Source of the DNA: Mugil cephalus
Taxonomy: Eukaryota > Chordata > Actinopteri > Mugiliformes > Mugilidae
Direction of reading: 5' to 3'
Length of the DNA: 64,000 bases
NCBI RefSeq assembly: GCF_022458985.1
Contig: NC_061782.1
Location: forward strand, 15,793,172 to 15,857,171
The stretch's first letter is position 1; the number at the start of each line of letters is the position of its first letter. Positions 17,401 to 63,907 of this stretch are shown here, piece by piece. The translations under genes were made by a program, and so were the position numbers. The notes beneath the pieces are model-generated. The model worked only from the letters and a program-made list of their open reading frames with translations. It did not search any database and was not told the DNA's origin.

Positions 17401-20400
17401 TGTGTACAACCACCGCATCAACTCGCCATCCGCATCTATTTAAACTCCGTCACTTTGCTTCGTCTCCATTGGCCCGGCGCTTCCTTACTCCTCCTCCCAC
17501 ACATGTCCCCAGTGAGAGGGCTTTCAGCACAGTAGGCAACATTGATGAGGACAAGAGATACAACATATTGGGTGTCAATGCAGAGAAGCTATGCTTCCTG
17601 TATTACAACCTGCCCCTCACTGACTTCAAGTATTAGACACTGACTGACTGACTGACAGCATGTTCTTTATTTAGATTTATGTATTTATTGAAAGTTCTGC
17701 TACATTATTTAATTTTTTTTGTTTGTAAATCTGTACTTTTTCTAAGTCTCAGAGTTCAAATGTTAATTGTCATTTTAAAAAAAGTCTGTTTAATGTTAAA
17801 TGTCTAAAGACATTGGTTTAAGAAAGCACCTGACTGTACTGGTGTCACTGTGACTGTACTATTTCATAATCATATTGGTGCAAAATCTATGCACAATCGG
17901 CCTGTTTTCATTCCAGCTCAAATATATCATAATGTATAATATATATTATAATATATAATAATCACTATAATTATGGTTACTATAATCTCCTCTAATATCG
18001 CCTATCGTTATCCGGTCAAAATATCCCTGTTGGCGGACACTAATCGGCACCTTTGTGCCAAAAACTGAACATGTGGTATAATCTTTGTAAACATAAAAAT
18101 CGTATCTGTTGTATGTAGGTTTGCATGCAATACCACAGTTTCCCAAATTAAATGCTAAATGGGTCCATGCAAAATGTTAAAAACATGTATTCTCAGGGAT
18201 CTGATCACGCGTGGACAACTTTAAGTAAAGATGTGAACCTCATTCGGAACAGGTCTGAGTCGCCTGGGACAACAATATGTTAGTAGTGTAAACACAGATA
18301 TGCCCAGACCAAATTGAGGAAGCCCCTACTTCGTGTATGTCTTGCGTAAACAGGGTTTTGCCTCATTCGTTCTTTCATTCATTCAGAGAAACAACACACA
18401 ACTGCTATTTAAGTTAATTAGTTCATGTTGCATATTGGCCTTATGGAGTTAAATAACGTATTTTTTCTGGCGACGCCAGGTTTGAACACGCTTACTTAAG
18501 ACCTGGTTTGAACTGGGCCTTTGGGATGGTTGTATCACTTCTATAAACGTGTAATTAATGTCACTAATGCAATGACTTTGCCCCCAAAACTGTTAGATCA
18601 ACCCTTTTAAATGTGTCAACTTTTCTTTTTGTTGTTTTTTTAGTTGTGAATTTGGCGTTGACAAAGCCTGTACACCCACCAGTGACGCTGTCTGCAAAGA
18701 AGGTATGATGTAGTTCAAACACAATGGATTAAATCATGTTGGATTCAGGTAGTACACTGACACTGTCATAATGTTTTATAATAAAAATCTTCACCTTCTG
18801 TTTCAGCAAACAACAACAACGTCGGTGCCATTGTCGCTCCCATTGTCATTGTTGCTCTTTTAGTAATCGGTGGTATATTGGTATATTGGTTTGTCTGGAG
18901 AAAGAGACAACGCGGTGAGTATTTCTGCTACTATATTGTATGATTTTAAACTATTTATGTGACCACAAAAGGGGAACAGATTTTCATGTGCTATTAAATG
19001 AAGCTACAGAAATTAAAGTTCAGTTCAGCATCCATATTTACATGAACTTTTTGTCAGATTCAGCAGATATCTGTATGCTCTGAAAAATAATCTAGTGTTC
19101 GTATAAAGCCGTGGCTCTGGAAGTGCAAAAAGCAGAAGAAGGATGCTAAATCTGGTTAGTACTAACATCCTGACAGTCCACGTGTTTTTAATTTTTGGAC
19201 AAAAAAATGTTTAGGGCCAGATCTGCTAAAGGTTTGTGTGTATAAAAGTGAATGCAAACTCATTGCGGGGAAAAAACAACAACATACAAACTGATTTACT
19301 AACAGCACGCGCTAAGAGTTGCATCTTTGAAAGGCGCAAAATAGCACGTCGGCATCCACTTAGCACGTTTACCTCAGTGAATATGTAATATTGGGCGTTT
19401 ACATGCAATTTTTGCATGTGCTTGGAGGAGAAAATGCAAATATATTAATTTAGCACACACAAAGCGATTTATCAAACCTGAAAACAGTTTTGCACATACA
19501 AAATGCGTCTGTATTTAACACGTCTCATCAGGACGTGCAAACGGTTTGTCCTATGTGTATTTGCGCACACATGGCTGCTGTTATTGTAGCGAGGAGGAAT
19601 TCACGCTTCATTTAGCAACTAAACGTTACCCCATGAAGCACATTGTTTTTTTATTCGGTAAATATCCAAATGGATCAGATGTGTCCAATAAATAATTTGC
19701 GTGTTTAATATGCGTTTACCATGGTCTACAATGACTATTCCATTGTGTGGGCCTCTTTCATTTGTCAGTCCATCAGTGCGCCGTGTCTTATAATTATAGT
19801 CAGATGTTTTTTGCTCTAACTCTGTGCTGTGTTTATTTGCTTCTTCAGCTGACACCTTCGATGTAACTGCACCAAATGTCATTTTGCACTTAAAGTCTCA
19901 GTGGTGAACACCAATAGCACATGCAAACCCCTCATTTACATATGAATGTTTTCTCCCGCTGGCATTTACACAATCAGTCTTAGTAAATCACCGCAGTTCC
20001 AGCCCAACATTGTTACACACAATTTGGGATCTTAGTATATCTGGCCCATGTTTTTTTTCACCTTTTCATACATTTCGAGTTTCAAATCTAAGGTGAAACA
20101 AACATGAATTTTGAGAAGGATCATTAATGGAGATCTGGGGGGAGAGAATTCTTGATAGTTAGATGGATGTTCTGCTTGATGGGTGGGTGATATTAGCTGA
20201 AACAACGTAAGTGGCACAAAGGAAGAGTCCAGCAGTCGTATGGCAACAAGAGATCATGAAATGTGAATAAAACTGAGCTGGAGCGGTGATTGGCAAACGA
20301 AATGTTGGCCAAGCAAACATACCGAGCTTATCGAATCTCAACTTTAAGGCGGTTAAGGTGACCACCAATAGGAACTAGTGATATGGCTGAGTGACGCTCT

Positions 20401-21497
20401 CTAAACATTTACCGCATGGAAACACCATCTATAACTTTGGTCCCAACTAGCTGATTCATTCAAAAAAAAAAAAAAAAAAAAAAAGCGCAGCTGAAACTTT
20501 TTGGTGTGCACCAGAGACATTTTTTTCCCATGTCCCTTTAGGGGCTCCGTATTTAGAAGTATTTGTGGTTGAAAATATAGATTAGTAGAGATTCGACCGT
20601 CCACTAATAAACAGCTTTCAGCGACAAAGCAGTGTGCAGCAAGGCTTTATGTGTAAACATGGCTTCATGTTGTTGAGTTCAACTGTGGAATACCTCACTG
20701 ATTTTGTTTCTTTTCTGATTTATCTCACAAGGGATTGAAGACCATGGACCAGTAAGTGACTCCGACCACCTCTGACCTGCTTTAACATGTAGAACGTCTG
20801 TGCTTGTGTGTCCCATCTAACTCTGTCTGTCTAACTGCTTTTGAAAACAAACACACATAGACATGAACCATGAGCATTGTTCTGTTTCTCCTCTAACCTT
20901 GCCAAAGCTGCCCCTTTATGTAGGAGTCTCAGGTTGGTTGTCTAAAACCTTGTGCGTGTGTGTGTGTGCTTGCTAGTGTGCTTCGTCTGTGTCAGTGTTG
21001 TTGTTAATGCTCAGGGCAGACTGTTTATATTTCCACTGTTAAATCGAAAGTTAACACTTCTATTATTTCTGCTTCACAGGACGATCAGCCACTTAGAGGT
21101 AAAAGAAAGTTTTTAATTGGTATTCAATTCCATAGGTCATTTGATTTTATCCATTACACAAAGTAATATGGTGTCTGTTGTGCTTTGTTGCACAGATATC
21201 CCAGAAATATCCCTTGATGACATCCAGCCTCTTCTGCTTCCGATATCAGATGAGCTTGGATGGAGTGTTGTGAAAGAAGTAGCAATTTACAGTAAGATCA
21301 AAGATCCTGCTATTGAGTCTTGTGAGCGCAACCACCCGAATGACAACCAGGAGCAGACGCGTGAGCTACTGAAGATTTGGACGGATAGTCAGGGCAGGAA
21401 TGCGCCAAAAGAGTTGGTCAGGATCCTTGAGGCACGTAACAAAAGAGCCCAAGCAGAGAAAGTCAGAGAGATATTGTTGGCATCCGTTCCTGTCTGA
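14450..21497 (+). CDS. fas: Fas death receptor (TNF receptor superfamily member 6)
   Basis: Type I membrane receptor that triggers apoptosis through FADD when FasL binds. Exons: 14450-14517, 14783-14910, 16014-16148, 16579-16690, 18644-18702, 18807-18914, 20732-20751, 21080-21098, 21196-21497. They total 951 nt (316 aa; human FAS is 335), and every junction is in phase. Residues 1-23 are a signal peptide (MASASKISTLLIFLIFFVDL). Cysteine-rich TNFR domains follow (CVDGMYDHEGKQCCKC; CEFCEEDTYI; CTRARNTRCRCKTDHYC; CEFGVDKACTPTSDAVC). A transmembrane helix lies at about 174-196, followed by the basic stop WRKRQR. Exon 9 encodes the death domain (LGWSVVKEVAIYSKIKDPAIE to the end). The order matches FAS, not TNFRSF10 or TNFRSF1A, and the neighbour ch25h agrees with human FAS-CH25H. 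Introns 4 and 6 carry transposons. The gene assignment is firm; the exact ends of the two tiny exons are inferred from phase. Confidence 0.92.
16840..18050 (+). mobile_element. hAT-type DNA transposon remnant in fas intron 4
   Basis: About 1.2 kb of foreign-looking sequence inside the largest expanded fas intron. It starts with repeated ATCGGT/ATATCGG words (accgattatcggtcaccg, gatatatcgg, ggcccgatag) and ends with related words (gcctatcgttatccgg, ctaatcggcacctttg). In between is an open frame whose C-terminus is an hAT dimerisation domain. The BED zinc finger and the RNase H-like catalytic core of a full transposase are absent, so this is an internally deleted copy. Clean terminal inverted repeats and target duplication could not be assigned by eye, so the edges are approximate. 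Confidence 0.7.
17127..17636 (+). pseudogene. Truncated hAT transposase (C-terminal dimerisation domain)
   Basis: A 169-codon frame without interruption. Only the last 45 or so residues are recognisable: PSERAFSTVGNI, then LGVNAEKLCFLYYNLPL, the classic hATC signature with the Ser-Glu-Arg-x-Phe-Ser core. The first 120 residues (MLKRFNQESKSL onward) look like translated junk joined to the domain by internal deletion. A full hAT transposase is about 600 aa or more with DDE residues; none of that is here, so it cannot transpose by itself. It lies in the same orientation as fas. Exonisation is not excluded, but no evidence supports it. Confidence 0.7.
19213..20048. mobile_element. MITE-like element in fas intron 6
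   Basis: About 835 bases bounded by inverted ends. The left end reads GGGCCAGATCTGCTAAAGG. The right end, read on the other strand, is GGGCCAGATATACTAAGATC. Flanking bases are atgttta on the left and atgtttt on the right, an imperfect duplication compatible with an 8-bp hAT-style target site. The interior is rich in 'tagcac', 'gcaaa' and 'ttttgcac' words and has no transposase frame. This looks like a non-autonomous DNA element. Confidence 0.65.
20460..20484. repeat. Poly-A run in fas intron 6
   Basis: About 24 consecutive A in the plus strand. It could be the tail of a retroposed fragment or a simple homopolymer; no flanking duplication was recognised. Confidence 0.8.
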
Positions 21498-23899: not shown

Positions 23900-24703
23900 T
23901 TAATCTCTTAATACGTCCTCTCGCGTCTTCCTGCTTCCTTCTTCCAGTGTGCCAAACAGTCTGTCCCAGTGCGTGAAGTACGGCGCGTAGTTGACTTTGA
24001 ATATCAGGTGGTGGAGGTCATGCTGCTGAGCTCCTCCGTAGAGGCCGAAGGGCACCAGTCTGTGTGGAGACCAGGGGAAATCATAGCCAGAGTGAGCCTC
24101 CACAGACAGATAAATGTTTGCGATGAAGAAGAGCATCTCTGTGAGCGGGTGGCAGTCCAGGATCACCGGGGCCATTGCTGAGAAGAAGCTGAGGCTCAGC
24201 ATCTCCCAGATGCCCGTGTCCTCCGTCATCAAGGAGAACGTAGCTGTGTGGAGGTGGTGCTCCTTGTGGAAGTGGTGGTAAAGCCAGTTCACCCTGTGGT
24301 GCAGAAGATGCCACAGGAAGCACTGCATGTCGAACAAGAGGAGGCAGGCCAGGACGTCCTTAAGAACAGACGGCACGTCCGGCGCCAGAGGAGGAGAAAC
24401 CACGTTCTTCCAGTACCAGTGCACGACAGACAGAGGGAAAATGAAATAGACGTGGTTCTGGAAAATTTTACACAGGCACCTCCAGTACATAGCCCACGTC
24501 ACCTTGCTTTGAGGCTGGATCCTGAAGCGGCGCACCAGCGTCAGTCTGGAGCAGAGCAAATCAAGGAAGGCGTATGGCAAGCAGCAGCTCAGGTAAACTG
24601 TCAGAGAGAATAAAACCGGAAAAAATGGAGACGTAAGGAGACTCTGCTGATCTCGTATCCAGTCCCAAGCGGTCTGCAGAAGGAGCCTGTCTGGGTTTGT
24701 CAT
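23900..24703 (-). CDS. ch25h: Cholesterol 25-hydroxylase
   Basis: ER-membrane di-iron enzyme of the fatty-acid hydroxylase/sterol desaturase family that makes 25-hydroxycholesterol, which represses SREBP processing and has antiviral and immune roles. One coding exon, 267 aa (human 272). The family histidine boxes are all present: WHLLHH, FHKEHH and QHDLHH. Hydrophobic segments flank them. Family blocks FFPVLFSLTVYL, LLLFDMQCF, SGYDFPWSPHRLVPFGLYGG and NYAPYFTHWDRLFGTL match human CH25H. The frame stays open 75 bases upstream to an ATG at 24,778, giving 292 aa. I prefer 24,703 because the family length fits and a pyrimidine-rich TTTTCTGCAG acceptor-like site sits immediately before it, suggesting a 5' UTR intron. 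It is convergent with fas, as expected if human FAS-CH25H synteny is kept. Confidence 0.9.
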   Translation of the reverse strand: MTNPDRLLLQTAWDWIRDQQSLLTSPFFPVLFSLTVYLSCCLPYAFLDLLCSRLTLVRRFRIQPQSKVTWAMYWRCLCKIFQNHVYFIFPLSVVHWYWKNVVSPPLAPDVPSVLKDVLACLLLFDMQCFLWHLLHHRVNWLYHHFHKEHHLHTATFSLMTEDTGIWEMLSLSFFSAMAPVILDCHPLTEMLFFIANIYLSVEAHSGYDFPWSPHRLVPFGLYGGAQQHDLHHLIFKVNYAPYFTHWDRLFGTLEEGSRKTREDVLRD

Positions 24704-25559
24704 GTCTGCAGAAAATGGAAGTGTACAAATAGATTTCTGAAAACATGATGCGATACTGTCTCGCAACATTGGAATCATTTCCTGATGAGACGTTTTCAGT
24801 CATTTGAATGAATCACCTAATGGAACTCTTGGTACACTTACAGCATTCAGGCTCTGTTGTTATAGGATGAAGTGCCACCTTGTGGATGCAAAAGGTTTTG
24901 TTCACATACACTAAAGTTGCTTAAGCGGAAGTGACCATCATGTGCACCATGTGCTGTAATTTTCCATGAGATACAAAGCATCCACTATTTGGCACTACTT
25001 GGCATTTTGTTTGTTTGTTTGTGGAATTTAAAAATATCATCTTTCTAACTGATCATCTTTCAAATCTACACGAACATACAATTCTGAACATATAATTCTG
25101 AATAAAGACAATATATGTTCTCTTCACCAGTGAACCCAATCCTCAAACCCTCAAAGGTCATGGTTAATAGGCTCACCGTTTACTGAGGTAGTGGAATCTC
25201 TTTTTTTTTGTGATCAGTTTAACAATTGTTACTAAACAGGAACACAGTAAAACCAAGAAGAATCTGATGTTATCAAAAAAATAAAATTAATGAAAAACGG
25301 GCTCTCTTACTGTTGTGTTTCATCATATCAATAATTTTTATTTATTTATTTATTAGCTTTTAGTTTTACCGAAATAAATTGTAAATGCATCTGTTTTAAA
25401 TAGACAGACGTGTTCCTGACTAGTTCCCTCTCCATGGAAAGCATGGACAGTACATTCAGACTTTCCTGACATGTCATGATTACTTTAATGTAACAGAAAA
25501 AACAAAACAAAAAAAACAAACAAAAACATGAACGTCTGAACCAGTTTAAACGACGACAG

Positions 25560-26925: not shown

Positions 26926-29346
26926 GTAGGTTTAACGACTTTTTTTTTGTTTAAATAATAATAATAATAGTAATAACGCAAATCCTCCAAGCGTGTTTCT
27001 CTAAACTTGTGTATCGACTTCTTGCGCGTCCCCGCGGCTAGACATGTAATTATGTTGCTCTCAACATATGCAAGGAGCGTGGTCCAGAACAATTTCCTCT
27101 TCTCCTCTGTGTTTCTATGAATTTCCACTTAAATGCAGAGCAGCCCTTTTGTTAGCCGTGAAGGTGACTCATGTGCCCGGAATAATGTTTGCGCGCCGCC
27201 ACATTTGCGTGATGAGATGAGGTGAGGTTCTCTATTTTGTTGCTAAGACAACAGAGGAGGTGACATGAGGCTGGTCCCAGCAGCAGGGTGGTGGAAACAC
27301 ATTTACATTTACTCACGTGCATGGGCAGCCTGAAAGTACTTTTACGTCCTTCTCATGCCACAGCAATCCTATTTGTTTTCATTATTTTTTTAGAGGGAAT
27401 ACATTTGAGAAGGCGCGCGCAAATTCTTATTTCTTCTTACTTAGGACTTAATAAAGGCAACATTTTGACAAGTTTGATAAAACAGGTATTTAGTTGAGCA
27501 ATACAAATGTATACAGACTTCAGAAATGCTGCAGACAATACGGCTGCTAAGCAAATATTTTAGTGAAAAGTGATGGTCATTGTCATTGTCATGGTTGCTG
27601 GTTTCCAGCTTGTTTCTGCACTGGAAATTATTTTATACTTTATTCACTTTCACGTTTATTTTCTTTTTCTACTGAGCCTGTGTCCAACTGTAACTTTTCT
27701 CTTATCTCATGTTCTTTTTTCTTATCTTTGTTGTTCGTCTGGAGACAATGTGATTGTGATATGTATCTACTGGGTAGCTCACAAGACACGTTTTGTTGCA
27801 TGCAAAACACAGGCTATTATTAACTTGAGCACTTAGTCACCAAACTTTTGGTACACTAGTGAAAATGAAGGCAGTCCCCGACATAAATTCCACGTTCATG
27901 ACTCCTGTAAGGTGGAGGACGTGGTTTGTGGTTTCGGCCCTTAAACTGGATTTTATTAAATGCTGAAGTGTTTGTGTTGTGTAGTCTAGGCCACTGACCA
28001 AAAGGGGGTGGTCAAAATAACAGAAACAATGTGTCAATACAGAACAATTCAATCTAATGAAAAGGCAAGGGGAGTGTAACATCTGAATTAACTCACCACC
28101 TTAGAACTATTAAAATAAACGTGAATCCATGCTTTCTCTGCACTTTATTGATTATACTCTGGAATGTATTGTGTCGAGGTGGTTTGACTCCTTGAGTCCG
28201 GCTGCCAAAGTCTGTCTTTCCATATGTGAACTATGCATAAGTGTTTGTTTATAGCCGATAAATGATTTTAAAATGTTACAGTACATCTCGGGCGTCTTGT
28301 CAGGCTCCGTGTTTGTTTGTGTGCACGGATCCATGTGAGCGTTGGATGACGTCCCGGTGAGTAAGTCATGGGAAGTTTCCCCTGGCTCTGCGGCCTCACA
28401 TACTCCATTACTGTGGCATTTTAACTCTGGGAGAGAACGGTCCGTCAGCCAATGATGTCGCAGTGAGATCATGATGCGTGTGTACTTCCCTTTTCTTGTT
28501 CCACTTTAGTGCCAGAAGAAGTCTCATTTTGAGCACTTTGTACGACTTTGTTTTCAGCGTTACGGCGGTGATATGTTAGTATATAGTTCGGTCCGTCCTC
28601 GTGAGAATGTTCTTGTGGTTGGCTTGGCTGCTGTTTTTGTCTTCCTTCCGACGCTTGTGATCTCTTAATATTTGCATAAGTACTGTAAGATACGAGCAAG
28701 TATTATTCATCATGAACTGTTCGAACAGCAAAGACACGCTAGACTGATGTGACTTCATAAATGGTGTCTCAAAACACCACAGAGGGTTAAATTTAACTTC
28801 AAGCTCGAAACATAAGCAACGCAATTATGTAATTTCCTCTTCTGGGCAGTATGTTGCATTACTTGTCAGTTAATTGCTGACGTTCAGGAAAGAAGGTAAT
28901 AAGTCGTTGTGAGTACTTTCCACGATGTTTCATTAGAAGTATTTCATAATGTATGTGGGTTTTCTGCACATTTTCTGAACAGGGCGGTGTTGCTCATTTT
29001 ATATTGGATTAAACGTTAACAGGATGTGACCGTTAGCAGGCACAATGTGTGGTAACTGCACAGGGTTATCAGAGAAGGGCTCAATCTTCCTTCCTCCCAT
29101 GCTTCAGAGCCTGATACTGGATTAGTGCGTCACTCAGCTCACTGCCTCTAAATTTAGAGGTACAATCTGTGTTTCCTGCGATGGGTGGAGCGCTTCATAA
29201 AAATAACTGGGCTTTATATACCAGCATATTTTGATATGCTCTCCTCAAATGCTCGTTTTTTTAACTTTTTTTTCTCTACTCTCTATGTTTTTTTGCTTCA
29301 GGATTTGAGCCTGGACGTCTGCGAGTGGCTGGAGTGCGTGCGTTAG
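26899..29346 (+). CDS. Spliced upstream ORF in the itprip leader (23 codons)
   Basis: If the leader exons join at 26,925/29,302, the ATG at 26,899 reads MNLHRKDTE across the junction, then DLSLDVCEWLECVR, and stops at TAG 29,344-29,346. That is 13 bases before the itprip ATG. Context CACC ATG A (A at -3) is favourable. Such an arrangement usually lowers translation of the main frame and can allow reinitiation only poorly because the gap is short. It depends entirely on the inferred splice; without it the ATG runs into the intron. Confidence 0.35.
27000..29300. other. Probable itprip leader intron
   Basis: About 2.3 kb without coding signal between the inferred leader exon and the coding exon. 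It contains a repeat-like segment at about 27,840-28,060 that ends in 'gtcaaaataacagaaacaatg', a word shared with elements in gsto1 intron 1. The rest looks unique. Confidence 0.45.
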
Positions 29347-29359
29347 AGACCAGCTGAAG

Positions 29360-30973
29360 ATGCAGGGGGCCATAGCGCGAGTGTGCATGGTGGTGGCCGC
29401 CGCCATTCTAAACCACCCCTCGCTCTTTCCTCGAGAGAACACCACACTCCCGGACCAGGACAAGGAGCTGATGGCTCGCATGCGGGAGCACGAGGAGCGG
29501 CTGGAGATGGAGCAGGCCAAGCTGGAGAAAGAGCTCTCACAGCTAGAGTCCAAGCAGGAGGAAACCGGCTCGGAGGGCGGTTTCAGTTGGTACTTTTGGA
29601 GCGTTTTGTCTTTTGTGATATTCTTCACCATCGAGATGTGCAGGGTGGATCTCGCCGACGCAGAAATCCGACCGGTGGAGGAGGAAGAAGTGTTTCCTGA
29701 GAGTGGATCCATCACCCCCAGGATGATGGTGCTGGACAAGGATATCCTGAGCAACTTCTGTGACAAATGCAACTACACTTCAGCCCACGAAAACTGGAGG
29801 GTGAGGGAGTTTGTGGAGGGATTTGCTGATGACTTGCTGGAGTCGCTCAGGAGCGTGTGCGACAGGGAGGCAGACATGGAGGTCGGAGACTTCATCGGAG
29901 TCGGAAGCATGTTTGAGTCCTGGAAAGTCTGCAAGCCTCTGACCTGTGACCTCATAGTGCCTTTCTCGCCTCCGGACCCGCACTCCTTCCAGTACCATCT
30001 GTGGTGCAGCCCCTCCAGTGACGTGCCCCCAGACATGCTGGGCTGCGGCAAGATAAAGGTGGCCAAGTTTTGGGAGAGCGAGGAGGGCTGCCTCTGCGGC
30101 TCCGCTAACCTGGGAGAGGACATGCTGTGTCTGTTGCATGGCAGGAATGAGGTACACAAAGCAGGCCACAGTCCAGATGAACTGCTGTGCTCCAGAAACA
30201 CACATTTCTTAGCCAAGGATCAGGTCATGAGGTGGTTTCAGATCTCTGTGACCAAAGCGTGGGGCCGCCTCTCCCACAAATACGACTTCGAAGTGACTTT
30301 TCGCAGCCTGGATGCCGCCGGCGCTCTGAAGATCCGGTTCCGCTCGGGGAAAGTCATCGTACTGAACATCATTCCGGTGGTTCAACTCCACGACACAGAT
30401 GCTTATTTTGTCTCCCACTTTCCATCAGATTGTGACAGCTGCCCAGACCCGTACTGGCCCCTCTCTTTGGCCGTCTACGAGAGGGATTTGCTGAAACATT
30501 TTGCTAAACGCCTCCCACAGAATTCCTGTCATTTACACTGCCTGCAGATTGTTACATTCCTTCACAGAAAGCAGTCAGGGCTCACGGGAAAGACTGGCCT
30601 GACTAACTACCACTTTAAGACAGCCGTGTTGCACTTGTTGCTGAGTAAAAAGGCCTCCGCGTGGGGCATCGAGAGCTTGCAGCTCAGGCTTCAGGATGTG
30701 CTCAGCCTCATGCAGAGGAGCCTGCAGGAGAAGAGGCTCAACCACGTCCTGATCGGGAACAGCAAAGTCCCGGTGGACATCCACGTTCCCGCGATGTTTC
30801 GCAAGGCGGAGCCCGTCAATCTGTTCAGGTCTCTGGTGCTGCAGAGGGAGCTGTACGCGGCGACACTCAGGCACTTTCAGGAGATGCTAAGGAACGCATC
30901 TGTGCTCATACAAGAGTACACGCCTTACTTATCGAATGGAGGTTTACATCACAGCCTAGATCAAAGTTTATGA
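29360..30973 (+). CDS. itprip: Inositol 1,4,5-trisphosphate receptor-interacting protein (DANGER family)
   Basis: Single-exon coding region, 537 aa (human about 547). Human ITPRIP binds IP3 receptors and raises their calcium inhibition; it belongs to the Mab-21-like nucleotidyltransferase-fold proteins. Visible in order: a hydrophobic N-terminus with the family block ILNHPSLFPREN (about 16-27); a charged coiled coil (about 33-70, KELMARMREHEERLEMEQAK onward); a transmembrane helix (about 79-94, WYFWSVLSFVIFFTIEM); then the Mab-21-like region with FVEGFADDLLESLRS, DMEVGDFIGVGSMFESW, LGEDMLCLLHGRN, IKFRSGK-like KIRFRSGKVIVLNIIPVVQ and the C-terminal YHFKTAVLHLLL. These blocks agree with ITPRIP rather than ITPRIPL1 or ITPRIPL2, and the neighbouring genes match the human locus. 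The ATG at 29,360 is the first in frame after an in-frame stop. Long antisense frames across the gene are shadows of its codon pattern. Confidence 0.93.
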   Translation: MQGAIARVCMVVAAAILNHPSLFPRENTTLPDQDKELMARMREHEERLEMEQAKLEKELSQLESKQEETGSEGGFSWYFWSVLSFVIFFTIEMCRVDLADAEIRPVEEEEVFPESGSITPRMMVLDKDILSNFCDKCNYTSAHENWRVREFVEGFADDLLESLRSVCDREADMEVGDFIGVGSMFESWKVCKPLTCDLIVPFSPPDPHSFQYHLWCSPSSDVPPDMLGCGKIKVAKFWESEEGCLCGSANLGEDMLCLLHGRNEVHKAGHSPDELLCSRNTHFLAKDQVMRWFQISVTKAWGRLSHKYDFEVTFRSLDAAGALKIRFRSGKVIVLNIIPVVQLHDTDAYFVSHFPSDCDSCPDPYWPLSLAVYERDLLKHFAKRLPQNSCHLHCLQIVTFLHRKQSGLTGKTGLTNYHFKTAVLHLLLSKKASAWGIESLQLRLQDVLSLMQRSLQEKRLNHVLIGNSKVPVDIHVPAMFRKAEPVNLFRSLVLQRELYAATLRHFQEMLRNASVLIQEYTPYLSNGGLHHSLDQSL

Positions 30974-44500: not shown

Positions 44501-47500
44501 TGACAACAATAAAGATCATTCAACAGTCTTAGTGATATATAAATGCATATATGACGATGAAGCTGTGAAGAAATGTGCTTCAGTTCGATATTGACGGTTA
44601 TTTGTGTGTTGCAGAGCAACCAGAGCAGAGAAAGGGGCGTTGATGACATGATGGAAGGAGTGCTGGAAGTAAAAAAAGAGGACATCTTGAAAATGGTGAA
44701 AATTATAATTTTCAGACATCAGTGAAAATGCTAATAGACTCACTCCAGATATATTATTGTATATATTATTGTCTGAAAAACATACAGAATATCATTCTAG
44801 TGGTTTGAACTATATTTATGCTTGAATCCTTTCACCCAGACATATTTGATAATAGAGTGGATTCATTTTCTCAGATTTGGGTGTTTTGAAATTTGAATAC
44901 CTGTAATTGAGCTGTAGTAAATTTTCAAAGCCACTTTATTGAGTAGAAATAGTAGTAGGATTGATAGTATTAATTTGACAGTAATTATTAGCTGAAACCA
45001 TAATGTTTGATTATTATGTTAGAGATTTCTGCACCACAAAGGAACCACTCGTGAAGTGTTAATCTTTTCTCTTTAGTCTAATGAGCACTTTTCTTTTTAA
45101 CCTGCAGTCTTTTCTAGGCGGTGTCAGTTGAATTAGACAAGTCAGCATGAAAGGCACATAGTTTCTATTCAATTTACTCCACAGGAAATACCTCTGCCTG
45201 AGTTTGTTTTGACCAAACCTGACATTCAGTGGAGTGAGGAGGAGAAAAAAGTCTACAAAGAGTATGAAAATAAAACCAACGACCTCACTGAGGAGAAGGA
45301 AAAATACAGAAAGGTATTCAGAGAAGTCATTCACAACTCTGTTTCGCATTGATCAGAAATATTATTGACTTCTGATGAGTATTAATCACTTGTGACCTCT
45401 GCCGCTGCAGTCACTGGAAATCGAAATACAAAAGCTGCAGGAATCCACAAAGGAAGTGGCTGAAAAGTTTGATGAAAGTTTGTCAAAGCTGTTTGAGAAG
45501 AAGATAAAATGCACCGTGGCTATATACCAGGTGAGCCAGCACGCGGGTACGCACGTACACAGTATGAGACATGCGTATTTAAAAGAAGTCCTGTTTAATG
45601 TGTATGTGTGTGTGTGTGGTGTATTTTAAAGGAAGAGCTGAAGATCACCTATCTTGCTGATGCAGTCACTGAGGAAGAGGAGATGAGAAACCGAGAGCTG
45701 GAGCTCAAGCTCAAACTTGAAAAAATGTTGGCATACAAGGTCAGAGAACTGGTGCACAGTAATGCTGCAGGAATTTATGACTGCCAGCCTCAGAATCTGT
45801 TTGTTGCGAGACATGGCTGCAGCGCTCACGTTTTAGTACATAGTCCTCCCCGTGCGCGTTTTGCAAGAGCGAACCTGTGTGGCACGCACGTTTGTTAGGC
45901 CTCCAGACCGTCTGACAATATTTCCATTACATATTGCTCCTGTGCTTTAAATGTGTACTTCTCTGACAGGATGAAATTACAGAGGAGGTAAAGAAACACG
46001 CAGAAGAAGTGGAACTGTTTCACGAGGCCTACGACACCCTCGTGGCTGAGGATAAAGTAAGCCAAGCTGATGAAACACAGAACTGTAAGTGATGGCGGAC
46101 ATAATATAACATCCTCAATGTCTCCCAAGGTTCTGGACAAAGACTTCAGGAAGGACTTCTTTGACGTTCCAAAAATGATGGTGGATCACCTCTACAAGCT
46201 GTTCAAACGTAGACCCAGGTTTGACTCATGGCTTCATACGTAGAAAATTGCATGATTTGTTCCATATGAGATTTTGATTTTTTTTTAACCTCAGGGTTCA
46301 GAAGATGAGGACCCAGTCTGACAGCAGCTCCAGAGAGCTCCGTCTGAGTGGTTCTTTGGCTCCTGTCGCGCTCGCCAGAATACTCGCCGCCATGGAGGAC
46401 CTGGATGCTCCGGAGAATATGCCAGAGGGTTTGAACCAGACTATCTGGGAAAGATTCTGTTTTTTCCGCAGAACAAAAGTTGAGAGTGAGCAAAAGGTAA
46501 TGCGAGATCACAGGAGAGGATAAAGTGTGGAGAGAAATTGGTATTTTGCTAAAATACAGAGCAAACGTGTAATTATCGTAACATTTTTAAATCTCTGTTA
46601 TGAATTTAAATCCTCCTAATTGCTCCAATCATCAACACCCATTGAATCCGGTCCAATCTAGCATATAAAACATGTACAAAAGAAACTGTCACGGAGCATT
46701 TCAGTGCTAAGTAAAGCAAAAGGCTTAAATTAAAAACACTTTGTATTTCTATATGCGGAGTGAAATTATGACACAGACTGACGGAGGAACTAAAGCAATG
46801 TCTAAGCATGAGCAAGTCTAATCAGCGGTACAAACACGTGGTGTTCACCAGGTACAGGGAAGAAGGAGGGTCTGGATATGTCTAAATATACATGTTTATG
46901 AGCATTTGAGAAAAAAAAAACAAAAAAAACACAGTAAGTAAATGTTAAATGGAAAAGGGTTAGGATCAAATAAGCGTAAAGCTTCTACCCACTCATTTTC
47001 GAACATGTTAAAATTGTTCTAATGTTGTTTTCTTTGTTTTGTCTTTTGTATTACATGTTGGAAATAAAGCTTTCATTCATTCTTTCACTCATTCATTCAT
47101 CTTCTGCAGATAAAACTCAAAGCTCTGAGTCTTGCTGAGATGCAGGCCTTCTTGCAAAGGAGGAAAGATGAGGAAAATGCAGCTAAACAGGAAATAAAAA
47201 ACATCTCTGAGGAGCTTGAAAGGTATGACGGGCTACCGGCGGCTGTGTCCAACACAGAACCCCGCAAAAGTGTCAGGTCTTGAATGTGTGATTTGTCCCT
47301 GTAACCTGCCTCTCTTCTGCTGTAGTCTGCATAAGGAGAGGAACCATCTTCTGATGGACACCATGGTCCAGCTCATACTCAAACAAGGCCAGGTGGAGGT
47401 TTCCACAGCAGACCTGTGCGCTGACGACACCAACTTCAACCTTTACCACAGGAGCGTGGTGGACGACCTCAGGAGCGTCATCAGGGTCGGCTCCTCTTAC

Positions 47501-49285
47501 AAAACGCAGATTCTTAAAACTAGGGCCATACTGTATATTCTTCTGATAGAGCTGCGTACAGAAATACACAAAATCGAATTTGATAAACATGCCAGAAAGA
47601 GATAAATTAAAGTGGTGATGATGATGTTTGTCTCTATAACCAGATGCTTGCTGAGCAGAAGATAGCCTCCATGGTGGAGCGTAAAGAGGTGCGCAAGGGC
47701 ATGATCCAGCTAGAGTGGGAGCACAAGGTAATGAAGAAGCAGATAGAGGACCTCAACGACAAAGCGAGGGACATCAAGATGTTACGACTCTCAGAGGAGC
47801 AACAAGATATGACGGTAAGCTGGATTCTAAAACACTGCTTTTTTAAATATATATATTTATTTTATTCCTGGCCAAATACAAACGTGGCCTCTAAAATGAC
47901 ACAGCGACAGGATAGTTAATAGAAATATATGTCAGAATTTTGAACAGTTCAACATCTGTTTGAAATGACAGTGAAATGTTTGCGTCGATCCCGTCAGCGA
48001 TTCTGGCCAAACCTCACTCGCTGATACTGACGCAGGTATTTCGGTCTTGGCCGCATCAAATGTTTTGCGAGCTGAAAATTGTTACCATCCTCCAGTGCAG
48101 ATGGATGATCTTTTATTGAGGACACACGCTCTATTCACGCGAGCACCCCACCCTGTTCCTCTCCTTTCAACTTGTGAAATCCTTACTCAGTAGGTGGAGA
48201 CTATTTCAAAGATCATTCTTCCTTCACCGCCTTCATTTGTTTTTTTTTTACAATGATCTATTTGGTTGTATTTACGCATTCATTAAAAAATCTAAGAGAA
48301 CTATTTCCTCTGCGATTTGTTTTGGTTACAAATGTCTAAGGCGTGAGCAGGCAGTTTAATGAAAAGCAGACCTCAAACATTGACAGAATATTTTTCTCAC
48401 AGTTGCGCAGACATTAACCCCTTACTTCACAAATAAAACCTACATTCTTTGAATTAGTCATTAAAATAAATATATATCACGTGAGTTACCAGGTCTGAAT
48501 GCCAGCTTCCTCTAGCAGATACATGTGCAGCGGGGCAGCTCAGAGCTTCCTGCCATTGTTTAAGCCCCTGAAACCGTGAGGAAAGCAAACCAACCCTGAA
48601 CATTTTATGGTCGAGGTTTGGCCCTGTGACACTTTTCAAAAAATATAAGCAAAAACCCTGTCGCTTTCTGTTTTTCTAACCTAATACAGAACAGTTGTCG
48701 CCTTCTCTTCACAGCATCTCAGCAAGACGGATTATGACAGTCACATGTCCAATAAAGTTTCCAGTTTGGAGAAAAGCATAGCTCTGATGACTAAGGTAAC
48801 AGGAAAAATAACAAGGAGGTCTTATTAACGAGCCGGTTGATCAGATGATATTTTTTATTGTTCTCTGTTTCAGACTCATCTACACACCGTGCAACAACGC
48901 ATCAAAAAGACTGAACAGATAAACAGGCAGGCGGCAACTAAAGCGGCGAACAATGCTCTTTTAGAGCAGCAGCTTCCCGGCATTCAGGTGACCGTGGCGG
49001 AGCTGAAACACATCTTTGAAGCAACAGGTAATCAAAACTTTAATCTTCTCCCCAATGCCACAAAGAACGCCTTCTTCTGGCTAATGACGGCGGCTTGTTT
49101 TGCATTTAGCTTCGGAGGAAAACGAAGCGGCTAAAACGGAAGAGCGTTACCAGGAAATCGTTCAGAAGAGCGACCTGGAGGATCTCGCCAGAGCGCAGGG
49201 CGAGGACCTGGACGCCCTCTGGAGAGAAGTAGAGCGTCTGACGAGGAGGAATTTTCCTTCGCTTGATCAGCTGAAACACACCTGA
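35573..49285 (+). CDS. cfap43: Cilia- and flagella-associated protein 43 (WDR96)
   Basis: Axonemal protein; in mammals its loss gives sperm-flagellum defects and infertility, and homologues in ciliates and flagellates tether inner-arm dynein f. Exons: 35573-35601, 35688-35941, 36020-36116, 36211-36378, 36553-36661, 36837-36981, 37077-37159, 37232-37363, 37445-37561, 37656-37733, 37842-37990, 38163-38266, 38387-38536, 39452-39612, 39713-39877, 39969-40099, 40867-41032, 41454-41561, 42005-42082, 42538-42645, 42724-42828, 42909-43025, 43515-43700, 43943-44149, 44329-44418, 44615-44695, 45185-45313, 45411-45530, 45632-45739, 45970-46056, 46130-46218, 46295-46496, 47110-47222, 47326-47485, 47644-47814, 48715-48795, 48874-49027, 49110-49285. 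They total 4,908 nt, 1,635 aa (human 1,665), with all phases closing. Residues 1 to about 690 are WD-type beta-propeller repeats (VDHLVFDQDGQYLLTSSS; HYLWLASVGRDGLLRIRE). The rest is charged coiled coil. Intron 11 begins with GC. The gene is shared-promoter with gsto1 and convergent with sfr1. Confidence 0.93.
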
Positions 49286-50796: not shown

Positions 50797-50888
<92 letters not shown>

Positions 50889-50922
50889 TTGTCTATCTGT
50901 CTGTCTATCTGTCTGTCTGTCT
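50797..50922. repeat. (ATCT)n tetranucleotide microsatellite
   Basis: About 90 bases of perfect CTAT/ATCT units followed by an imperfect GTCT-interrupted tail. It lies between the sfr1 promoter and the gene-free spacer and is probably highly polymorphic. Confidence 0.97.
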
Positions 50923-58300: not shown

Positions 58301-61300
58301 TAAGTTTGTTTTAAAAGGGCCTCCTAGGTTTGGATTTTTTCCCCCCTCATAATATAATCCTTTGTTTGAAAACTACATCGTGTGTTTACTTGTGCTCCCT
58401 TTGACTAATATCTAAAATTGTCTAATGAACTGAATCATTTTAAGTGTGTGACACACATGCAAAAAATATTAGAAATCAGGAAGGGAGCCAACACTTTTTT
58501 GCACCGCTGTAAATCCTTTTCTTAGTACGTGTTAGTGAAATCGAAGCCGCGGTAACGAGGTGGAGCCACCTCTGTGACATTAATTCAAACTTCCGTTTTA
58601 AAGCTCAGCTGTCAGCTGCTATCAACATATAGGAGTCACCGTAGCAGCTCCCATGATGATAGACATATGGACATAAACACAGTGTGCACAGTGATGATCA
58701 TCTTTCTTTCCATCAGTTGTGACAGAAACCATAACCTCCACAACCAGGCTGACTTCCCTCCCACCCAGTGAGTCTCTCTTCATCCTTCCATGCCAGTAAT
58801 TGTGAACCGAAAGCATAATTCAGTAATCACAGCCGACCGGCTCTGAGGGAAGTACCCCATGAGTAACGGCGTCCTCCTTGTTTTGCTCTGTGTCTTCTCG
58901 TTGCTAGAGGGAACCAGCGGATCAAATCACAGGAATATGTCCAGCGGTGTCGGAGGGCTGGGCTTGGAGAAAAATGTCTTTACCCAGAGCAGCAACGGAA
59001 CCTACTTCTCTTCAAGTGAGAGCAAATTTCCACTCGTGGCCCAAAACTGGGGAAGCTGTGGCTTTGTCTTCGGGGCAGAGTTTTGAGAAGTGTGGTATTT
59101 ATAACCCCTGGTAGAAGGAAAGAGTTGAGGGTTTGAGAGGGTTTTGTTTGAAGAAATTTGTTTTATTTCCTTTTCTTATGTGAAATTAGAAATACCCCTT
59201 CACAAGAAAAAGTCCTGCATTACACATGAACCTAAAGTGTTATCATCATGTAGCCTGAGAGCGACTGAGTACACACTTCAGGTACTTTATGACGGTGAAA
59301 TAATCTCACTCTATACTTCTGCTCCGCAGCACCTTATCAGGGAACATTGTCCTCTTTCTTTTATTGCTCTTTAATTACTTGGCGGGTATAACTTTGTACT
59401 TTCTACAAATAAAAACTAATGTGCAGGAGATTTATATTTTAACATAATACAACATAAGATACCTTCAATGATCACCACACAAGGAATTCATGATGACAGA
59501 GCAGCAGTGCAACAAGAGACAGCAGGAAAGAAATATCTCTGCTTTCTTATTGAAAGTTAGTTGAGTAATCCATTTGTCCACTGACAGCAAATTAAATGGG
59601 AAACTATTTTGGTTATATTTCTGATGACATGAGCTAAACATGCAACCACTGTTATTGTCAGAAACAGCCCGTAGCTTCCTTTTATTTCATATGATATGCA
59701 TCTGTAAAGAAACTGTGTTGTTTTAATAATAATAATAATAATTAATTATATTAAAAAAACATAAAAAGTAAAAGTCAGTGTTGGATAACTTCTAATTGTT
59801 TCCTTTAGACTGCTCCCGTTGCTTTATGCACTGGAGGTCAGCTCAATATGTACAATGGAAAACTTCAGTCTAAATTGATTTTTTTTTTTGCATTTTCTTT
59901 GCAAATCAGTGCAGGAAATCAAAAATAACTTGTCCGCTTCGCCCCTCCAGCCTCCGTAGGCGTGAACACCGGTAGCTACAGCTCCTCCTCGGGTATCTAC
60001 ATCGGAGGAGACTCCTCAGGTGGAGGCGAAGGAGGGAGCTACATCGATGGAGAAGAGTACGGGAGTGGAGGAGGAGGAGCGGGGAGCTGCGAGAGCACCA
60101 GCTACCTTTTGGGCTCAGGAGGAGGAGGAGGAGGAGGTGGAGGAGGTGGTGGGAGCAGCAGTTATCTTGTGAGCTCTGTAGGAGGAGGAGGAGGAGGAGG
60201 CGGGGGGAGCAGCAGCAGCAGTTATCACGTGAGCTCTGTGTCAAAGGTCAGGTCCAGCTCGTCCGGGGGTACCAGGAGAACCCAGACTGCTGGCTCATCA
60301 GGAGGACTGTCGCCAGGTTTCCGAGAGAGGAAGATCATATCCAGCCGCTCAGGAGGTTATGACGGTGAGGTCCTATTAATAAAACAGGGGCTGCACACTT
60401 GGTATCAGAGCTGCCTGAACCAGGAGCTTGAAGGAAGCTGCTGGGCTCAGCTCAGAGGTGGGGTTTACACGTCTATTGTGTTTCTTCTTCTTAGGAAGTT
60501 CCAGCGCTAACTCCTCTCCAGAACTAACACGCAAAGACTATGGAAACTATTGTAAGAGGGAATGATTGCACTTACTTATTCCACAATAAAGACACGTCTG
60601 TGTGTATTTGTGTTTATGTGTCTGTTTTTCTTTCAGGCTCCAGTGCCACACGAGGGAGGAGCGAAAGCAGAGGTATTCAATAGCCCACCCCCCACTCCTT
60701 CCCCACCCTTCATTATTTCTAAGCCATCTGAATTCCAAATTGTCCCCAGTCACTTTTTATTAAATCAGGATTCCTTTGTCCATTGTGTGTTATGATTTTT
60801 TTTTTTTTTTTCCAGAGAGCGAGATCCGAGCCAGGCTCCAAAGTGCCTCCCCCTCTGCCTCCAGATGTAAGACCACTCGACCCATTGGCCGTCGTTATGC
60901 AATCGCCCATAAAGCGACAAAGCATCTTTCATCTCTGTGTGCATTGAATTACGCTGCTGTCAAATCCTTTGGCTCGTTATTCAGTATATCGTGAATTCAC
61001 TTCCCACATGCAAGTTTCCGCGAAAAGCCCAATTAGTAACACATGTGCCGTTTAGTCCCTCCAACATGCTGCAACAGCAACGCGAGGAGGGCCCGTGTTT
61101 GAGCTGGGAGGAATGTACATTTGTTTGCATTGCGTTCATGTGTGGAACAAGCCATGGAGCAGATCTGTGGTGGCAGAAACGGCACACATGAGTCACCGTG
61201 CGCACCGCCTCCTGTTTTGAACCAAAACTGTTGAGGTTTTTATTTTTACCCGTTGCTCCCCCTGCTGATCGGAGTCTGTAACTGCTGTTTTTTAATCCAC

Positions 61301-63907
61301 ATTTCGTAACGTTAAGTGATTCTGTGCCAACTTCAGCCTCCTCAGGCGGGTCTGAGGCACTTACTTAAAAATAGCGTAAAAGGTGCTTTTGCATGAATGC
61401 TTTCCAAGTTTTGGAGAAGCACTGCACTTTTTCTCAGTTACCTCAGTGTGTTGGATATTAGACTTAAATAGAATTTATCGATCCACGCGGGACATTACTT
61501 GGTCACAGTCTCAGTTGTACATAAAAAAAACCTCTTTAATACCACTAGTAAAATGAAAAATAGGTGAATATAATAAATACATAAGTATAAAATAAAATAA
61601 AACTGACATCATTTGAGTCTTTAATAACAACCCATTCATTAATTAATTGCAGGCCTTGCAGCACTGACTTTACGTGCGTGCAAAACACACAAACAAGCGA
61701 GGCGTTATAAGGTGTCTTTAAGCTTTGAACCCGCTTCAATCACATCTCAATTTCTCTGCGACATATTTCACCACTGCATGTGTTTGCTGAGCGCTGCGTG
61801 TGTGGTTGTGCAGGGGCAGAGCTGGAGGACGTGAAGAAGCTGCTGAAGGGACGCTCCAGCAGCGTCAGCCCGACCCGCTCCTCCAGCGCCTCCATCACCC
61901 TGCCCGTTCCCAAAAAGTCAGGCGTGGAGGCCAAAACCGTCTCAGTGGCCACTCAGTCAGGTATATACTGTTACCAGGGTCACACACATGCACATAGTTA
62001 AGCACATACTTAACATGCACAGACTTTTTGTCTCCTTTACACATGCTTGTAGACGTGCTCGGATGACTTTCACGCCCCCTCTCCCCATTCTCGGTAGCTG
62101 AGATCGGGTGTCTTGGATCACTTTTGTGTTTTTTAACATCTCAATACAATAATAATAACGTAGAGTAATATTTCCTTGAAGGTGGCGATGTTGTATACTG
62201 TATTGTGTAGCAAGACATATTTAGATTTAGAACTTTTTGAATGATCTTCTTCACTGTTTTTTTTTTGTGGATGAAAAGAGTTTTACAATATCAGAGACAC
62301 AAACACTTTCTTAATATCTGTCTTCGTTGTGTGTCTCCTGCAGTTGCAACTTCATTTGGCCCTGGTGTGAGATCAAACGGGTTCAACACCATCGACCTGT
62401 CGGGCCTGTATGAAACCACCCTGACTTCTGCGCACATTGATACCGGCTCCAAAACGAGCCAGTATGATATCAGCCTGCAATCAGGCCAGTATAATACTGG
62501 CACGAGGTCGGGACAATATGATATGAGTCTCAAATCAGGGCAGTATGATACTGGCATCAAATCAAGCCAGTACGATATGAGTCTGAAGTCAGGTCACTAT
62601 GATACTGGTGTGAAGTCAGTCCAGTATGACACCGGCCTGAGATCAGGTCAGTATGACACGCTGGACTCCACACTCCCCACCTTCTCATGGTCCACCTCCA
62701 CGCTGCCGTCTGCCTCCGCCACGGTCATCGCTGGCAACACCAGCAGCTACGCCTACCAGTCCGGACAGTCCGGACAGGTCGGCCAGATCAGCACCAACAA
62801 CATGTCGGGGGGCGCCTCGCCGCTCGGCACCACCCTGCCGTCATCCCTGTCAGGTGAGACCAAACCCCCCTAAATGTTAAAAGTAAATAAACAAACAAGA
62901 AGATAAGATTTTGTGGTATTAGAAACATATTACGACTACCAGTAAAAGTCTTAAACACTAAAACTCTAAAACAAATCTCACCTTCTTTTCATGATTCAAC
63001 TGTACCATCACTAACATCTGTAACTTCATAAACCATTTTGACTGATATTCATTGTCAAAATACAGCAACCTAAATACAATACACACTTTAAATCAAGTAA
63101 ATTATTTAGCACTTTTTTTTTATCGTGTATTAAAATAAACCCTAAAAGGTTCAGTTACTGAAATGTACAGATTTAATACAGGTTCAGTGCTGGTTTACAT
63201 AATCGTAAATTCATTAACTTATATTTATATTTAATAATTGTTGCTCTATTTATATATTTAATTAAACCTGTGATATTATTCACATTGTATAATCAGCTCT
63301 GTTTGATTATTTATGTCACTTTTGTCTCATATGCCTTCCACTTTCTTTTACTAGTTGTTTCTCTATGTTCAAAGATTTGTGTTTTATTGTTTTACGTTAT
63401 TTTATCAAATCTCTGTTTCTGTGCCTATAGTTTACGGCTTTCAGAATAACCTGGCCCCCACCTCTGGCAGCGTGCTCACCACCAGCGGAGCCAATGTGAA
63501 CGCCAACGTTGGAGGTGCCACATACATTTGAACTCTACTGTGATAAATCAAATCAGCCCCTTTCTCTTTGAGTGTTTATCTGATTCTGTGTTTATAGGAT
63601 ACGGCGTTCAGAAGAACGTGTCAAACGGCGTCGGCGTCATCAGCACCGGAGTCTCAACAAGTGAGTCTCCAACAAAGAGTCACCTAAGTGTGTCAAATGC
63701 TAAACGATTCCTGACTGGTGTTTTTTTTTTTTTTTTTTTTCCTGTTGTTAGCCAGCAGATCCCAAACTGATGATTCCTATAAGAAAGACTACAAGTTCAT
63801 GGCGTCCGATAAAGAGAACTTTTCAGGCAAGAGGGACGCAGAAATGCTCATCCTGACCAAAGACAGCGGCAAGCACTTCACCAGCGGCAGCGCTCACGTG
63901 GGAGGAG
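55380..63907 (+). CDS. col17a1: Collagen alpha-1(XVII), N-terminal cytoplasmic part (partial at right edge)
   Basis: Type II transmembrane collagen (BP180) of the hemidesmosome that links keratin, via plectin and integrin beta-4, to the basement membrane. Exons: 55380-55422, 58717-58767, 58908-59015, 59951-60364, 60495-60551, 60637-60672, 60816-60866, 61814-61960, 62344-62853, 63431-63514, 63598-63660, 63752-63907. They give 1,720 nt, 573 aa, still in the intracellular domain; the transmembrane and collagen parts lie beyond the window. Blocks aligned to human: EKVVTETITSTTRLTSLPPK, SSSANSSPELTRKDYG, ESEIRARLQSASPSASRWAE, LEDVKKLLKGRSSSVSPTRS, LPVPKKSGVEAKTVS, YGVQKNVSNG, AEMLILTKDSGKHFTSGSA. 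Two unusual insertions are entered separately (Gly/Ser block, QYD repeats). Teleosts can carry two copies of this gene; I cannot say which one this is. The start at 55,380 fits the human N-terminus in phase. Confidence 0.9.
56980..58511 (-). mobile_element. Degenerate Tc1/mariner transposon in col17a1 intron 1
   Basis: About 1.53 kb with long inverted ends of roughly 200 bases. The left begins TACACTGTTGTGAAAAAGTC; the right, read on the other strand, begins TACAGCGGTGCAAAAAAGTG. Both continue into 'cctgatttct' and, about 170 bases in, 'aaacctacatggccc' (left) or 'aaacctaggaggccc' (right). The interior matches, from memory, a common fish Tc1-like transposase gene read on the minus strand, for example 'ggagtcatgaacactgacct' and 'ttctttggatgttgttgtgg'. 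It is shortened and broken by frameshifts; around 57,720-57,760 the block that should hold the first catalytic Asp (WTDE) reads WTNR. Not active. Confidence 0.8.
60067..60240 (+). repeat. Triplicated poly-Gly/Ser block inside col17a1 exon 4
   Basis: Three adjacent imperfect units, each a GGA-rich poly-Gly run followed by Ser residues and a Tyr: 60,067-60,117 (ends SYLLGS), 60,118-60,180 (ends SSSYLVSSV), 60,181-60,240 (ends SSSYHVSSV). The DNA is a GGA/GGT codon microsatellite, so length variation is likely. The resulting Gly-loop composition resembles the glycine loops of epidermal keratins and loricrin. Human COL17A1 has no such run at this place that I remember. Confidence 0.85.
62424..62666 (+). 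repeat. 27-bp (9-residue) tandem repeat in col17a1 exon 9
   Basis: One degenerate unit (62,424-62,450, TSAHIDTGS) and eight clear units (62,451-62,666) with consensus (K/R)SGQYD(T/M)(G/S)(L/I/V). Units 1, 3 and 5 end in D(I/M)SL and units 2, 4, 6 and 7 in TG plus T/I/V/L, so there is a 54-bp, 18-residue higher-order period. Human COL17A1 has a single related SGTYD here. All units stay in frame and no codon is broken. Confidence 0.92.

Follow-up and report, generated by a model that had tools for sequence, protein, structure and literature searches.

A tandem array of a nine-residue motif in the cytoplasmic tail of one of two collagen XVII copies of Mugil cephalus

Within one cytoplasmic-tail exon of a col17a1 gene of Mugil cephalus, eight clear 27-bp units follow one another in frame (62451-62666, plus strand), with the consensus KSGQYDTGL; if degenerate ones are counted, the array has about eight to ten units. 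Comparison of the units within the array supports purifying selection on a six-residue core, [K/R]SGQYD. Positions are those of the window, i.e., the whole stretch of 64,000 nucleotides that was analysed. Disordered protein tails are known to undergo tandem expansion of motifs, and the array is a clear case of this, with a selection signal within the array, in a protein that in human anchors the skin and is an autoantigen in blistering disease. An instance of such an expansion in collagen XVII was not found in the open-licence literature searched, and the titles and abstract openings of open-licence papers yielded no report of repeats in fish collagen XVII.

The repeat units and their host exon

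The host exon measures 510 bp and has phase 1-1 (62344-62853, plus strand). Its borders, an AG/TT acceptor and an AG/GTGAGA donor, are predicted from the sequence. A search of the species' own genome places a query of 62346-62855 at C13:15855517-15856026. The eight core units read, in order, KTSQYDISL, QSGQYNTGT, RSGQYDMSL, KSGQYDTGI, KSSQYDMSL, KSGHYDTGV, KSVQYDTGL and RSGQYDTLD. The first-pass annotation had assigned eight units to 62424-62666; the eight 27-bp units are real, but this interval holds nine unit frames. Its claim that Tyr is conserved in every unit holds for all eight core units, and the residue recurs regularly, every nine positions. An acidic residue beside the Tyr and a basic residue at the unit start, which had been attributed to each unit, are both present in seven of the eight, the exceptions carrying Asn and Gln, respectively. 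The 72 core residues include 12 S, 9 G, 8 Q, 8 Y, 8 D, 7 T, 5 K and 2 R, and with 7 basic and 8 acidic residues the core is near neutral.

Both a 27-bp and a 54-bp period were detected by TRF. Within the 216-bp core, identity is 0.63 at lag 27 (119/189 matches) and 0.71 at lag 54, compared to 0.20-0.25 at the off-register lags tried. As a null, the codons of the exon were shuffled 2000 times and every position was scanned at lags of 12-60 in steps of 3. The best match count in the shuffles averaged 68.6 and never exceeded 85, against 119 in the observed array, which is therefore real and above chance. The 54-bp higher-order duplication proposed earlier is weakly supported: the alternation of units gives a permutation fraction of 0.016-0.042, but without codons 7-8 the fraction rises to 0.20-0.25, so the alternation rests on these two codons. 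An assembly artefact is an unlikely origin of the array, because the units differ from each other by 9.3 of 27 bases on average and the genome is assembled in 24 contigs.

Two degenerate units that agree with the core profile lie in register upstream of the core, i.e., TSAHIDTGS, with Ile at the Tyr position (62424-62450, plus strand; per-site P 0.003 versus the shuffled exon), and LSGLYETTL (62397-62423, plus strand; per-site P 0.0008). A third candidate at the outer edge, RSNGFNTID (62370-62396, plus strand), is doubtful. It shares 16/27 bases with the last unit, but its per-site P is 0.05 and it is outscored by three 9-mers of the exon that are not units.

Judged by its exons, the gene is col17a1, as the first-pass annotation had proposed, because its cytoplasmic exons are collinear with those of the human protein, a membrane-proximal SWWKW motif follows and Gly-X-Y exons lie downstream. 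The intracellular domain (ICD) of human BP180 served as tblastn query against the window exons. The conserved exon before the array (61814-61960, plus strand; AELEDVKKLLKG...SVSPTR...TLPVPKK) matches it with E 8.6e-11 and also has a match in the paralogue described below. The three linked exons after the array, with their introns (63430-63906, plus strand; VYGFQNNLAP, YGVQKNVS and DDSYKKDYKF...TKDSGKHF), match with E 8.5e-13, and shorter exons match in order with E 0.008-0.07. The match of the array exon itself is weak (E 0.053), and its place in the gene therefore rests on exon order. In the window extended with downstream DNA of the host genome, a Cys cluster with SWWKW, FCCCSDACCSWWKW, is present at 64811-64873, followed by 19 open stretches, each of which holds four or more GxP/GPx triplets. 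The human Gly tract additionally matched 60046-60153, out of order, which is a compositional match.

At the position of the array, the human protein has a single SGTYD, with its first residue at aa 204. This motif is aligned by tblastn to the last core unit (62640 onward), where the unit and the next segment, RSGQYDTLDSTLPTFSWSTST (62640-62702, plus strand; E 0.053), resemble the human segment. Global alignment pairs SGTYD with LSGLYETTL (62397-62423) instead, a unit that resembles human SGTYDATI. Both methods align the LDxxLPxxxWS part after the last unit to human in the same way. The exons on both sides of the site are collinear between the human ICD and the fish gene, with one copy of the motif in the former and roughly eight to ten units in the latter. 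The earlier placement of the array at the single human SGTYD is thus upheld by the human sequence, and the paralogous exon likewise has a single QY.

According to PMC8623354, the ICD of collagen XVII, which is a trimer, is about 70% disordered and contains four repeats at aa 227-324 in human BP180. These are tandem repeats in the cytoplasmic domain, as is the fish array, but differ from it in position and sequence. Identity of the array with these four repeats was rejected: the first two exons after the array (63430, 63600) match human aa 280-331, a region within or beside the known repeats. The same source gives a total of 11 Tyr for the whole human ICD, a number that the array exon reaches by itself, and describes human aa 178-467 as lacking Arg, whereas the eight core units contain two.

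A second copy without the array, and selection within the array

The 635-Mb host assembly, made up of 24 contigs, contains a second col17a1 copy, with exon matches at C2:12287342-12289009 on the minus strand. With either of two cytoplasmic exons of the window as query, the genome search gives the window gene and this copy (two matches among the two best-scored candidates each), and the region C2:12280001-12300000 holds several matching ICD exons and an SCCSWWKW motif. Exon order and phase around the array site are the same in both copies. The positional counterpart of the array exon measures 99 bp, has phase 1-1 and reads EQYGSIWSGGVPSGYSYNTHHSNLSPTSTLYQS, with inferred borders and a weak-looking donor. 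It has one QY. The array is absent from this exon, and TRF reports repeats elsewhere in the region or none. The peptides of the two exons align poorly (global score -5.9; best tblastn E 0.27), so that exon order and phase are the basis for treating them as equivalent. Against the human segment, the array and C2 exon peptides score 42.1 and 35.5, respectively, in global alignment. In a protein search of the genome, the array exon matches only itself at E 0.001 (one of the best 14 scored candidates).

Since the counterpart exon lacks the array, the expansion is not general to collagen XVII in this species, and the earlier description of the array as lineage-specific is narrowed to one of two col17a1 copies in this genome. 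The simplest history would be an expansion in the copy of the window, because the human sequence has one motif and the paralogue one QY. A loss of the array from the C2 copy, rather than a gain in the window copy, is possible.

Comparison within the array supports the selection on the peptide that the first-pass annotation had suggested. For the core units, pS is 0.71 and pN is 0.246, i.e., a pN/pS of 0.35 (codon bootstrap 0.17-0.64), and the ratio is 0.18 for codons 1-6, corresponding to [K/R]SGQYD, and 0.79 for codons 7-9. Of 2000 neutral simulations run on the unit tree, a fraction of 0.002 reached 0.35 or lower; on random trees, the fraction was 0.003 at matching divergence (300 runs) and 0/300 at each of four higher divergences. 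The Tyr codon has no replacement difference among the eight units, and Tyr is retained in all eight in 2.9% of the unit-tree simulations. If the two degenerate units are added, pN/pS rises to 0.47. The units of a tandem array share their history and may undergo gene conversion, and the comparison covers only 72 codons; because the units are not independent, the effective sample is small. The coding frame is the only stop-free one of six and has the lowest pN/pS in the core. Antisense or other-frame coding was rejected, as the other five frames contain three to seven stops each and have a pN/pS of 0.58-1.35. Within-array comparison alone thus places the array among selected tandem arrays of short linear motifs, with purifying selection supported for the six-residue core.

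At fourfold sites, a difference is seen in 28 of the 53 pairs that can be compared, which suggests that the array is old. As synonymous divergence is high, the array is either old or located in a fast-mutating region.

Possible roles of the array

In human BP180, aa 13-89 and 145-230 of the ICD are essential for the interactions with K18 and BP230, according to PMC8623354; taken in the order listed, aa 13-89 would be the K18 part and aa 145-230 the BP230 part. The latter contains the SGTYD motif. With a pI of 10.0 this stretch is highly basic, and its binding is presumed to be electrostatic (PMC8623354). We tentatively favour, at a little under even chances, the view that the array works as a multivalent strip for docking or clustering within the disordered tail in the hemidesmosome. 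A nine-residue linear motif with the core [K/R]-S-G-Q-Y-D would then have expanded in tandem long ago in one col17a1 copy, multiplying a weak docking contact that adjoins the region listed for BP230 in human. A collagen XVII trimer would present about 24 motif copies (8 x 3), which could hold the hemidesmosomal plaque, i.e., plakin and integrin beta4, through avidity, and phosphorylation of Ser, Thr or Tyr might loosen this contact. The array does not simply copy the human basic patch, since it is near neutral whereas human aa 145-230 has a pI of 10.0. That the array shares its motif with the human protein and the paralogue is uncertain, because of its weak matches to the former (E 0.053) and the latter (score -5.9, E 0.27).

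Other readings deserve attention. Tyr and K/R among G/S/Q spacers might act as stickers through which the tails cluster by self-association, without a specific partner. This would fit the regular spacing of Tyr every nine residues, the G/S/Q-rich composition of the core and the disorder of the human ICD (PMC8623354). In addition, a second repeat region of the tail (59929-60363) also places Tyr amid Gly and Ser, and in PMC9692912, repeats of cornified-envelope proteins of keratinocytes are tied to condensates. However, Tyr-Arg contacts, for which only two Arg are available, are weakened by the Asp next to Tyr and by the lack of net charge, and the constraint on S, Q and D besides Tyr exceeds what stickers need. 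We consider self-association rather unlikely. A similarly small chance is given to the idea that a flexible linker has grown in length almost neutrally, with its composition alone under constraint. Degenerate edge units, an expansion limited to one exon and a paralogue without array form the pattern expected of slippage or unequal exchange, and codons 7-9 are weakly constrained (0.79). The ratio of 0.18 at codons 1-6, the retention of Tyr in 8/8 units and the neutral simulation fraction of 0.002 nevertheless speak against such drift in length.

The array might also serve as a strip of multiple phosphorylation sites, where phosphorylation of Tyr (Src/EGFR-type) or Ser/Thr (PKC, CK2) switches hemidesmosome disassembly or recruits SH2 proteins. 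Tyr is indeed present in all eight core units, and PKC-type [ST]x[RK] and CK2-type [ST]xx[DE] motifs each occur at two sites. Moreover, calcium-induced differentiation is reported to be accompanied by PKC-mediated serine phosphorylation of the BP180 ICD and by hemidesmosome disassembly (PMC8623354). Yet no kinase or docking motif among those tested is repeated along the array, and we regard this reading as improbable. The core contains no NPxY and no [RK]xx[ST], and 0/8 units have an acidic residue one or two positions before the Tyr. YxxP is found in 0/8 units and YxxPhi in one, the last. The phosphotyrosine site suggested by the first-pass annotation is thus unsupported as a docking site, because no common pTyr motif recurs.

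The substrate domain of p130Cas, an adhesion scaffold, consists of YDxP repeats; like the array it presents tandem Tyr-Asp motifs, but a Crk-type substrate domain was rejected, as Pro is at Tyr+3 in 0/8 units. An ITAM or YxxPhi sorting motif was discarded as well, a bulky hydrophobic residue being at Tyr+3 in the last unit only. Pfam searches for a repeat or domain gave three matches, all under the curated cut-off. The sole PDB match (E = 1.3) is a nonapeptide repeat that we take to be the C-terminal repeats of fission-yeast Spt5. These are also nine-residue, G/S/T-rich and aromatic but belong to a different protein, and homology is not detectable at this E value. Searches with the array pattern retrieved 32 stretches in prokaryote contigs, none of them confirmed, as expected for a fish gene, and 10 in viral contigs, again with none confirmed.

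A further step from the docking strip is that the copy number of [K/R]SGQYD is a valency dial setting hemidesmosome strength or turnover in this lineage, which we regard as a long shot. If true, adhesion would be tuned by repeat number in a way that is absent from the single-motif human protein. Knockdowns in zebrafish are reported to give split phenotypes, junctional epidermolysis bullosa-like for col17a1a and neuronal for col17a1b (PMC6744580). This split, together with the array-free second copy in the mullet genome, makes a direct test of the role of the array possible.

Second repeat region and genomic neighbourhood

A second coding repeat region of the same cytoplasmic tail lies at 59929-60363, where runs of 9-12 Gly alternate with SSSYLVSSV or SSSSSYHVSSV (TRF period 60-63). 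The related stretch of the C2 paralogue lacks these long Gly runs. The Gly tract of the human ICD is located elsewhere, at aa 428-447 (PMC8623354).

Upstream of col17a1, CFAP43-like exons are found at 45599-49131, with a Pfam CC_Cfap43 match above the cut-off at 48841-49131 and below it at 45599-45895. A single-frame ORF of 554 codons with a Mab-21_C domain spans 29309-30970 and is presumably ITPRIP-like. CFAP43 and a Mab-21_C gene upstream of col17a1 agree with vertebrate synteny. Further away, a Death-domain match (21117-21494) and a fatty-acid hydroxylase frame (23903-24799, minus strand) are present, reminiscent of the FAS-CH25H neighbourhood of other vertebrates. An open frame at 17124-17633 has a weak match, below the Pfam cut-off, to the hAT transposase dimerisation domain, and a CTAT microsatellite of 31.5 copies was detected by TRF at 50797-50922.
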